Positions 10,175 through 15,693 of a stretch of 22,736 nt of DNA are shown piece after piece. Under the pieces are notes generated by a model. The model was not told where the DNA came from. It saw nothing but the letters and a program-made list of their open reading frames with translations, and searched no databases. The first letter of the stretch is position 1, and each line of letters begins with the position of its first letter. Made by a program: the position numbers and the translations under genes. This DNA comes from a virus, in the IMG/VR virus record IMGVR_UViG_3300025151_000328, positions 1-22,736 of that record; one strand, given 5' to 3'.

Positions 10175-10582
10175 TTAGAATCTAAAACCAAACCCTAATG
10201 TAAGGTTTGTAGTTTTATCTCCTGTATTGTATATAATTTTTGGATCAACGTAAATATTATTTCTTAATGTAAATAATTTACCTGCTCCAAGTGACATTCC
10301 ATCCGTAGATAGTCCGTCAGTTGCTAAATATGCAAAGTATCCTTTCCAGAAATATCTTGCGTGAAAATCAATATCTATATCCACTGTTGAATCAGCTTGC
10401 GCAACTGAACAACCTACCATTAAGTTATCCGTTACACCATAACCGATTGTTGGTGAAACTGACCATTCAGTCCAAGCAGTATTTGCAATATCACCTGTTC
10501 CAATGTACCAGTCACCAGTCGTCTGTGCGTTAGCAGCGAACATACCGCATGCTAACATGATTGTTAAAATTAAGTTTCTCAT
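10175..10582 (-). CDS. Exported outer-membrane beta-barrel-like protein
   Basis: 135 aa starting MRNLILTIMLACGMFAANAQ. Residues 1-19 are a clear signal peptide with basic start, hydrophobic core and an ANA|Q cleavage site; ANAQ ends are common in Bacteroidota secreted proteins. The mature chain shows alternating beta strands with aromatic residues at the edges (WYIGTG, WSVSPTIGYGV, FHARYFWKGYFAYL, NIYVDPKIIYN) and ends in GFGFRF, a C-terminal Phe as used by the BAM machinery. At about 116 mature residues it could form a small 6-8-stranded barrel. SD AGAGGA precedes the ATG. A phage gene of this kind could alter surface receptors (superinfection exclusion) or assist outer-membrane disruption; neither is shown. 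It lies between gp55 and the 2-TM protein. Confidence 0.85.
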   Translation of the reverse strand: MRNLILTIMLACGMFAANAQTTGDWYIGTGDIANTAWTEWSVSPTIGYGVTDNLMVGCSVAQADSTVDIDIDFHARYFWKGYFAYLATDGLSTDGMSLGAGKLFTLRNNIYVDPKIIYNTGDKTTNLTLGFGFRF

Positions 10583-14387: not shown

Positions 14388-14399
14388 CCTGCCTGTATT
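14388..14399. repeat. Right arm of 12-bp inverted repeat flanking hsp20
   Basis: CCTGCCTGTATT, exact reverse complement of 13874-13885. This arm overlaps the stop codon of the 215-aa gene, so pairing in the RNA would start at the end of that cistron. Confidence 0.5.
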
Positions 14400-15045
14400 A
14401 ATCACTAGTTTCGTTCATATTGAACACGTAACTATGTATAGTAACACTCCCATGCTTTTTTATTCTATGGTCGTAACTACACTTATTGTTTTTCATAATT
14501 CTATCTTTAAACCTATTTAAAGCATCTAAATTAGATGAACTAACAGCTATATAACCATCTAATATTTCAACTTTAGTTACAGGTTCTTTTATATACATAT
14601 CATCCGAGTGCAGTTTTTTACCATCTGCTGCACGATAAATATATGATTCAGTTTGATCATCAGATAATGTAGATAACCAATTATAGAAACTTTCTGGTGT
14701 TTTATAAAATTCTCTATCTACTTTATGCAACATATTCCATAACATATTAGGATTGGTTGCTGTAAACTCTTCTACATATTTTTCAAAATCTTTTAGATCG
14801 TTAGGTGAAAGAGTTTGTATAAACTGTATAACTGATTCTACCCTTCTATCAGAATCCATGTAAGGTGTTTTAAACTTCATAGCTTTAGAAACACTCTCTA
14901 ACATATGCTTATTTGTATCAATATCAAACCCTTCATGGAACATACTTACTTCATCATCTGAATATTGAAAAAGAGTATCAGGAAGCGTATGATCAAATAG
15001 ATCATGAGCATCTAAATAATTGTTATGTTTAGTTACATCTTCCAT
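14398..15045 (-). CDS. Unknown 215-aa acidic protein following the tmRNA
   Basis: 215 aa starting MEDVTKHNNYLDAHDLFDHT. Acidic and mainly helical in residues 1-140 (SPNDLKDFEKYVEEF, SFYNWLSTLSDDQTESYI), with a more beta-like C-terminal third (VTKVEILDGYIAVSSSNLDA ... SVTIHSYVFN) that could be a small alpha-beta fold. No catalytic motif seen. It begins about 20 nt after the 3' hairpin of the tmRNA coding piece, with GAGAG before the ATG, and ends at the inverted repeat before hsp20. Codon use looks like the neighbours. Role unknown. Confidence 0.72.
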   Translation of the reverse strand: MEDVTKHNNYLDAHDLFDHTLPDTLFQYSDDEVSMFHEGFDIDTNKHMLESVSKAMKFKTPYMDSDRRVESVIQFIQTLSPNDLKDFEKYVEEFTATNPNMLWNMLHKVDREFYKTPESFYNWLSTLSDDQTESYIYRAADGKKLHSDDMYIKEPVTKVEILDGYIAVSSSNLDALNRFKDRIMKNNKCSYDHRIKKHGSVTIHSYVFNMNETSD

Positions 15046-15067
15046 CTTCTCTCTTTTATATTTACCT

Positions 15068-15104
15068 CTAACCTCCGGGACTTTTACGACGTGGTCCCTG
15101 TTAG
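15068..15104 (-). other. 3' hairpin of the tmRNA coding piece
   Basis: CTAAC-A-GGGAC ... GTCCC-GGAG-GTTAG can fold into a two-part stem with a 12-nt apical loop. It closes the coding piece about 20 nt after the tag stop and could protect the 3' end from exonucleases. It has no T-run, so it is not by itself an intrinsic terminator. Confidence 0.6.
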
Positions 15105-15125
15105 CCGTTTGCTCTGGGTACCTAA

Positions 15126-15158
15126 TCAGGCAGCCATTGCATATTCAACTTGTTCGCC
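15126..15158 (-). other. tmRNA tag reading frame: GEQVEYAMAA-stop
   Basis: GGC GAA CAA GTT GAA TAT GCA ATG GCT GCC TGA. The resume codon is inferred as GGC because Bacteroidota tags usually begin Gly-Glu and because the upstream TAACT matches the conserved pre-resume element (UAGUC in E. coli, with the key A). The AMAA end fits the hydrophobic-Ala-Ala degron read by ClpXP-type proteases. Confidence 0.75.
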
Positions 15159-15216
15159 AGTTAATTGCGTTTGACCTTCCTTATACCCTTACTACCTGTC
15201 AAATCCAATCATCCCC

Positions 15217-15234
15217 ATATTGTTAGTTGTCACT
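15217..15234 (-). other. Intervening segment of the permuted pre-tmRNA
   Basis: 18 nt (AGTGACAACTAACAATAT) between the encoded CCA and the first G of the 5' half. In known permuted tmRNAs this loop is cut out by tRNA-processing enzymes (RNase P makes the mature 5' end), leaving two RNA pieces. Confidence 0.75.
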
Positions 15235-15300
15235 TGGTGGAGATGCCGGGAATCGAACCCGGGTCCAAAATAGCAGCTAATACAAGTACTAGCGGTCACA
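15235..15300 (-). other. Acceptor piece of the tmRNA
   Basis: Contains the P2 strand region (TAGTACTTGTATTAGCTGCT), the TTTTGGACC linker (compare UUUCGGAC in E. coli), the T arm and the CCA end. The upstream limit is uncertain; the region begins just after the stop of the 127-aa gene at 15310. Confidence 0.7.
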
Positions 15301-15309
15301 TATAAATAT

Positions 15310-15693
15310 CTATTTAGAGTTTAAAATCTTTTGAATACCTAAATGTTTCTTATAAATTTTATTAACTATATTCATACTAGATTTAGTTAATGTATTTGTA
15401 GAAACTAATTTAGATTTTATATTAAAGATCTTATTTTTATCTTCCTGATATTCTGCTTCAGAAAAATTATTATAACCTTTACTCTTTAAGATATTATCTT
15501 TTATCAAAGATACTACAGACATTAATTTATCTATCTCTTTAGCTTTATCTAAATTTTCGAACGCAGCAAAAATATTCTCTATTGCACTAGCCTGTTCAGG
15601 ATTTCTTCTACCTAAATCTCTTAATGCTTCTTCATGATCTTTCATTCGTAAAAGCTCATCAGCTAAATATTTTAGTTTCTTTTTAACGTCCAT
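15310..15693 (-). CDS. Small helical protein upstream of the tmRNA (unknown)
   Basis: 127 aa starting MDVKKKLKYLADELLRMKDH. All-helical, lysine-rich, without Cys or obvious motif; the central part (ASAIENIFAAFENLDKAKEI) and the C-terminal part (SSMNIVNKIYKKHLGIQK) could form a helical bundle. It is the first gene after promoter G, whose message has an unusual, almost purely A/T leader of about 90 nt, and the tmRNA begins about 10 nt after its stop, so both should be made from one transcript. Function unknown. Confidence 0.72.
   Translation of the reverse strand: MDVKKKLKYLADELLRMKDHEEALRDLGRRNPEQASAIENIFAAFENLDKAKEIDKLMSVVSLIKDNILKSKGYNNFSEAEYQEDKNKIFNIKSKLVSTNTLTKSSMNIVNKIYKKHLGIQKILNSK

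Follow-up and report, generated by a model that had tools for sequence, protein, structure and literature searches.

Among 133 unique phage tmRNAs, 53 are of the two-piece form, almost all of these aquatic, and phage Melnitz provides a worked case (PMC9004378). The Melnitz and pelagiphage tmRNAs resemble the RNA described here in being phage-encoded, permuted and marine, but differ from it in that phylogeny is reported to make them alphaproteobacterial (PMC9004378). A tmRNA database of 2025 holds 79 phage sequences and 11,946 permuted genes (PMC11915505). The alpha, beta and cyano two-piece tmRNAs, merged in the Rfam family RF04321, share with the present RNA the gene order, the two-piece tRNA-like domain, P2, the tag frame and the pseudoknot after the tag. 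Typical two-piece tmRNAs also have a pseudoknot before the tag, PK1 (PMC3985003), whereas the present RNA has PK2 and lacks PK1.

Phages of flavobacteria reported to carry a tmRNA of unstated form include Cellulophaga phage Calle and Maribacter phage Panino. In the part of the literature that was covered, no paper discussing a permuted tmRNA in Bacteroidota or crAss-like phages was found. The initial annotation of this locus had treated the permuted tmRNA as unfamiliar in Bacteroidota and their phages; a view of such RNAs as new to phages is not supported, as they have been published for marine phages (PMC9004378) and some crAss-like ones are annotated as tmRNA in GenBank. The RNA described below is thus new as a variant, not as a kind.

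Organization of the tmRNA Gene

The window, that is, the whole stretch of DNA analysed, is a linear IMG/VR fragment of 22,736 bases. It contains genes for baseplate wedge proteins (phrog_219/6 and phrog_261), an Hsp20 and a CobS-type ATPase, which indicate a contractile-tailed phage. The tmRNA is flanked by ORFs at 15310-15693 and 14398-15045, whose function is unknown and which had no PHROGs match, and it fills the space between them. Elsewhere in the window, positions 10175-10582 encode a signal-peptide, beta-barrel-like protein with a weak OMP_b-brl match, below cut-off.

ARAGORN made a permuted call ('tmRNA*') on the minus strand, with the tag GEQVEYAMAA, and a cmscan of the whole window placed RF04321 (tmRNA_permuted) at 15287-15126 on the same strand (75.3 bits, cut-off 47, E=4.6e-13), the sole Rfam family to pass its cut-off in the window. 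Both results bear out the circularly permuted, two-piece, phage-encoded tmRNA that had been proposed from the letters of the sequence. The complete permuted-order tmRNA lies on the minus strand at 15297-15070, and consists of the 3′ tRNA half, an 18-nt spacer and the 5′ half, in that order; the arrangement of a CCA-bearing 3′ half ahead of the 5′ half, with the spacer at 15234-15217, is as first described. The limits given earlier for the pieces need small revisions: the acceptor piece begins near 15297, and inclusion of the pseudoknot after the tag takes the coding piece to at least 15077. The parts of the gene are as follows.

15301-15308, minus strand: TATTTATA box, candidate phage promoter element, immediately 5′ of the RNA; most relatives have a similar box in front of the gene
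15235-15297, minus strand: acceptor piece, with the P2 3′ strands, T arm, 3′ acceptor strand, discriminator A and CCA (ARAGORN, Rfam, 22-gene alignment)
15246-15262, minus strand: T arm with a 5-bp stem; double-sided changes in 2 of 5 pairs (G-C, C-G, A-U, U-A), 100% paired
15217-15234, minus strand: intervening sequence of 18 nt, between the encoded CCA and the GGGG 5′ end, presumably removed at maturation
15070-15216, minus strand: coding piece, with the 5′ acceptor strand, D-like loop, P2 5′ strands, tag frame and pseudoknot; 3′ end approximate
15210-15216, minus strand: 5′ acceptor strand GGGGAUG, partner 15239-15245; third pair G-U, 100% paired in the alignment
15192-15197, minus strand: P2a 5′ strand, partner 15268-15273 in the acceptor piece; double-sided changes in 3 of 6 pairs, 92% paired
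15180-15186, minus strand: P2b 5′ strand, partner 15280-15286; double-sided changes in 2 of 7 pairs, 94.5% paired
15173-15176, minus strand: P2c GGUC, partner GACC at 15294-15297; present in the minimum-energy fold
15126-15158, minus strand: tag reading frame GEQVEYAMAA, stop UGA; frame intact in 22 of 22 distinct genes
15077-15108, minus strand: H-type pseudoknot after the tag; stem 1 15104-15108/15086-15090, stem 2 15094-15098/15077-15081

On the minus strand, the acceptor piece ends with the acceptor strand CAUCUCC, followed by A and by a CCA that finishes at 15235. The intervening sequence varies in both length and sequence among relatives, reaching about 66 nt. A PK1 cannot be accommodated, since only 9-15 nt separate P2c from the resume codon.

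The TATTTATA box occurs in 9 coding-strand copies in the window, compared with 3.3 expected, and several of these lie 20-40 nt upstream of start codons, a distribution that is suggestive of a late promoter element of this phage group. Scans of the window for sigma-70 promoters and terminators gave nothing above chance, and Shine-Dalgarno counts were low, though not decisively so.

Conservation and Covariation

A scan for the acceptor-piece motif recovered relatives, in all 34 IMG/VR viral contigs that carry 22 distinct tmRNA genes, the window included; a blastn search with the tmRNA gene against 50,697 phage records gave no match. A secondary structure was first drafted by eye, using the window together with its relatives, and its pairs were then counted on the alignment, with 500 shuffles and slid partners as controls. 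Pairing was found in 97.0% of 608 cells, compared with 88.4% in shuffles, which leave the kinship of the relatives in place. Double-sided changes occur in eight pairs, and covariation scored 0.260, compared with 0.098 for shuffled alignments and at most 0.083 with slid partners. The acceptor stem, the T stem and two of the P2 helices that link the pieces, P2a and P2b, are all supported by compensatory changes. P2c is invariant, so that covariation cannot be applied to it. In the acceptor stem of 7 bp, the fifth pair changes on both sides, from C-G to U-A, while G3-U70, the key pair for alanine charging, is invariant (U-G in all sequences at alignment columns 57/133). An unconstrained fold recovers the acceptor stem, T stem and P2, with an energy mildly better than that of shuffles (z -1.78). 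The acceptor stem with its G-U pair, the T arm, the P2 helix and the tag frame, all listed in the initial annotation, are present, and covariation among the relatives exceeds both kinds of control.

The pseudoknot after the tag is 100% paired in 13 sequences, and 6 of its 10 pairs show double-sided changes, including all five of stem 2. The tags of all 22 genes end in AMAA or LMAA, and all three stop codons are used. In four genes (L094, L100, L105, L111), the tag is lengthened in frame to 36 residues (GKQVELAKVNVEDILSYITDLAMDAEYVEEPALMAA; L094:5948-6058), and ARAGORN misreads it. CCA is not encoded in 17 of the 22 genes, and in these it would need to be added after processing. Two relatives (L092, L112) have a terminator-like hairpin and a T run immediately past the pseudoknot, which fits a separate transcript end.

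Retention of the tag and the pseudoknot bears on whether the RNA could act as a decoy, being charged and bound by SmpB but mainly titrating or blocking the host tmRNA. As a precedent, such a role has been proposed for an RNA of the mycobacteriophage DS6A that consists of a tRNA-like domain only (PMC4131195, PMC11915505), and no smpB was found on the phage fragments searched, none of which is known to be complete, so that SmpB is assumed to come from the host. A decoy, however, would need neither the full tag frame with its AMAA or LMAA end and stop codon, kept in 22 of 22 genes, nor the covarying pseudoknot behind it, and we regard this explanation as quite improbable. The gene order, covariation-supported structure, intact tag frame, conservation and lineage signals (see below) shown by these sequences instead make it very probable that the window RNA is a functional two-piece tmRNA owned by the phage, for which we infer processing, charging, use of SmpB and a benefit to the phage.

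One further pattern match, the only one on a genome contig (L090), was rejected, as CTCCACCA stood there by chance ahead of a normal one-piece tmRNA of Bacteroidaceae. Permuted tmRNAs are also found on many other viral contigs (L005-L045); they are of several types, with tags that include ANNNNFALAA, GNDYTMEDYALAA, AANDAEYDVAIAA and others, and some of them lie inside large tRNA arrays.

Host Assignment

A sister contig of 80 kb (G428) carries the same tmRNA as the window. It encodes a T9SS type A sorting domain (PF18962, 50.4 bits; TIGR04183, 48.7 bits), as well as a CHU_C type IX domain (44.4 bits) and a PKD_6 domain. To our knowledge, type IX secretion is essentially restricted to the Bacteroidota group. 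These domains, together with the occurrence of related tmRNAs in a Bacteroidota prophage and in crAss-like phages, indicate that the host is probably a marine member of the Bacteroidota, and the sorting domains of the sister contig make infection of Bacteroidota, the group named in the initial annotation, very probable.

The baseplate genes are less informative. The closest isolates by one baseplate wedge protein are the Microcystis phage Mel-JY01 (47% identity) and Flavobacterium phages (42%), a split that makes this route alone ambiguous and the host not certain. A search with the baseplate protein of 395 Bacteroidota genomes returned two weak partial matches only, and hence no host. Since Mel-JY01 is the best isolate match, infection of Cyanobacteria, in which the two-piece form would be unremarkable, was weighed as well. 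The T9SS sorting and PKD_6 domains on the sister contig argue against it, as do the position of Flavobacterium phages as the next isolates, the lack of a permuted tmRNA match in Mel-JY01, and the failure to pass the cyano tmRNA model, a weak test as no control genome passed it. A cyanobacterial host is thus considered unlikely. No permuted tmRNA match was found in the Flavobacterium phages or in the 484-kb phage LR756508 either. This last phage, which is related by baseplate protein, has a match to the standard-form tmRNA (LR756508.1 92434-92880, L083; 72 bits).

tmRNAs of Bacteroidota Chromosomes

The standard one-piece model (RF00023) scored above cut-off in 60 of 61 sampled Bacteroidota genomes, in agreement with the earlier statement that this form is usual in the group. 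The permuted model did so in 1 of 395 Bacteroidota genomes, at a prophage locus (L123, G264:C1:986035-986308) with the tag GKVIQMNNAPVRLAA. Next to L123 are genes for tRNAs; genes for a DNA polymerase and a helicase occur in the same region, which is followed by a gene for a tyrosine recombinase and, beyond it, by chromosomal genes (as judged from the sequences themselves). It is from these surroundings that a prophage is recognised. Its host genome also contains a one-piece tmRNA of its own (160.3 bits) and SmpB, and so a Bacteroidota chromosome can carry both forms, the permuted one on a prophage. Nine weaker RF04321 matches examined in Bacteroidota genomes were one-piece tmRNAs.

The one-piece tmRNAs of Bacteroidota resemble the window RNA in the Gly-Glu start of the tag in several members and, in two of them (L137, L140), in UAACUGGCGAA around the resume codon, but have the standard gene order, are longer and contain more structure. 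A GGATTTGAC D-loop was considered as a mark of Bacteroidota ancestry and was dropped, having been found in 2 of 35 Bacteroidota tmRNAs checked.

Integration often takes place at tmRNA genes, and pieces of such genes occur in prophages (PMC9004378), so that the window gene might be a fragment or passenger, gained from a host tmRNA by recombination or integration and no longer used. The one-piece form of the Bacteroidota chromosomes speaks against such a source, the gene lacks none of its parts and shows conservation and covariation over 34 viral contigs, and no integrase was recognised among the listed window ORFs. We judge a disused passenger to be highly improbable.

Proposed Function

As a functional two-piece tmRNA, the RNA would be transcribed by the phage as one precursor, comprising the acceptor half, spacer and coding half. 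RNase P would cut before GGGG (15216), and 3′ processing would form the CCA end of the acceptor half (15235), so that the 18-nt spacer is set free, with the two halves remaining joined through the acceptor stem and P2. The host alanyl-tRNA synthetase would charge the tmRNA through G3-U70, and host SmpB would deliver it to ribosomes stalled on broken mRNA, where translation would resume at GGC and GEQVEYAMAA would be appended as a degradation tag. The phage may benefit by keeping ribosomes free while mRNAs are cut during infection.

The probable marine Bacteroidota host is expected to have its own one-piece tmRNA as well, in which case host and phage would use two gene forms of one rescue RNA in a single cell, with different tags. 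Phage-tagged and host-tagged proteins would then be distinguishable, so that the reason for which phages carry tmRNA could be tested directly. Without PK1, the RNA is in addition a compact natural case in which to examine the requirements of a two-piece tmRNA.

Relationship to Other Permuted tmRNAs

The window RNA matched the alpha_tmRNA (RF01849; 36.2 bits, cut-off 50) and beta_tmRNA (RF01850; 44.1 bits, cut-off 84) models only partially and below cut-off. The partial match to cyano_tmRNA (RF01851) reached 45.7 bits with a cut-off of 70, a weak test in that 0 control genomes reached the cut-off. In the same runs, other phage permuted tmRNAs passed the alpha model (L005, L010, L013, L023, L041) or the beta model (L010, L024, L041).

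A blast search with the prophage RNA L123 led to the crAss-like phages cr53_1 (NC_055889), cr60_1 (NC_055891), cr56_1 (NC_055890), cr10_1 (NC_055875) and cr50_1 (NC_055868). Three of these five RNAs pass RF04321, and three are annotated as tmRNA in GenBank. With a profile of the coding piece of the window clade, matches to cr53_1 (E=1.8e-4) and cr56_1 (E=9.3e-4) extend over positions 1-140 of 145, and every one-piece Bacteroidota tmRNA and every other phage permuted tmRNA tested ranked below them. The motifs AGGUCAA, UAACUGGC, ACAAGUU and an AACGGC..UGUCGU pseudoknot stem are common to the window clade and the crAss-like RNAs. Like the window RNA, the crAss-like tmRNAs are permuted, have a Gly-first tag and belong to phages of Bacteroidota; cr53, cr56 and cr60 also have UAACUGGC at the resume codon, the AACGGC..UGUCGU motif after the tag and no room for PK1. 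They differ in their spacers of about 70 to 600 nt, in their tags (such as GNTSYVMDYTRLAA) and in being from gut phages.

In a tree of 35 phage permuted tmRNAs, the window clade grouped with the RNAs of the crAss-like phages and of the prophage (support 92/87), with the crAss-like RNAs as a sister group separate from the marine clade; built on 264 unevenly aligned columns and holding no bacterial alpha, beta or cyano sequences, the tree cannot place the origin of the permutation. On these comparisons, the window tmRNA belongs to a phage-borne permuted lineage common to crAss-like phages and a Bacteroidota prophage. The lack of fit to any lineage model, together with this grouping, implies that any permutation or transfer event predates the present phage and belongs to this wider lineage. 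The tmRNA, as read from sequence, is intact and selected, is carried by a phage that probably infects Bacteroidota, and is of a lineage outside the known lineage models.

Two origins, which leave the proposed function unchanged, were considered for this lineage. One is an old acquisition from an alpha, beta or cyano bacterial donor, from which the crAss-like and marine forms would both descend after heavy change. The tRNA-like domain modelled by RF04321 is common to all permuted tmRNAs, and other marine phages carry alpha- or beta-type tmRNAs that pass those models, in keeping with such a donor, whereas the window RNA falls below all three lineage cut-offs, lacks PK1, and has a tag that starts with Gly-Glu, as in several Bacteroidota. 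Taken together, we give this acquisition a little less than an even chance. The other is that Bacteroidota phages, from marine myoviruses to gut crAss-like phages, have a PK1-less two-piece lineage of their own, the permutation of which arose independently of alpha, beta and cyano, possibly from a Bacteroidota one-piece ancestor. We advance this only tentatively, as a possibility that may well not hold. If the permutation is independent, it would represent a further origin beside the three main known bacterial lineages, and would suggest that permuted tmRNA genes originate, or are maintained, in phages.

Two observations concern the surroundings of the crAss-like genes. In cr56_1 (L175, NC_055890, about 840-1650), the acceptor half ends near 900 and the coding half starts from about 1501; the roughly 600 nt that separate the halves contain an annotated endonuclease gene, as though the intervening sequence harboured a homing endonuclease. 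Upstream of the crAss-like tmRNAs (L174-L177), at distances of up to about 1.4 kb, are RAGATH-9, RAGATH-20 or RAGATH-22 RNAs that scored above cut-off.
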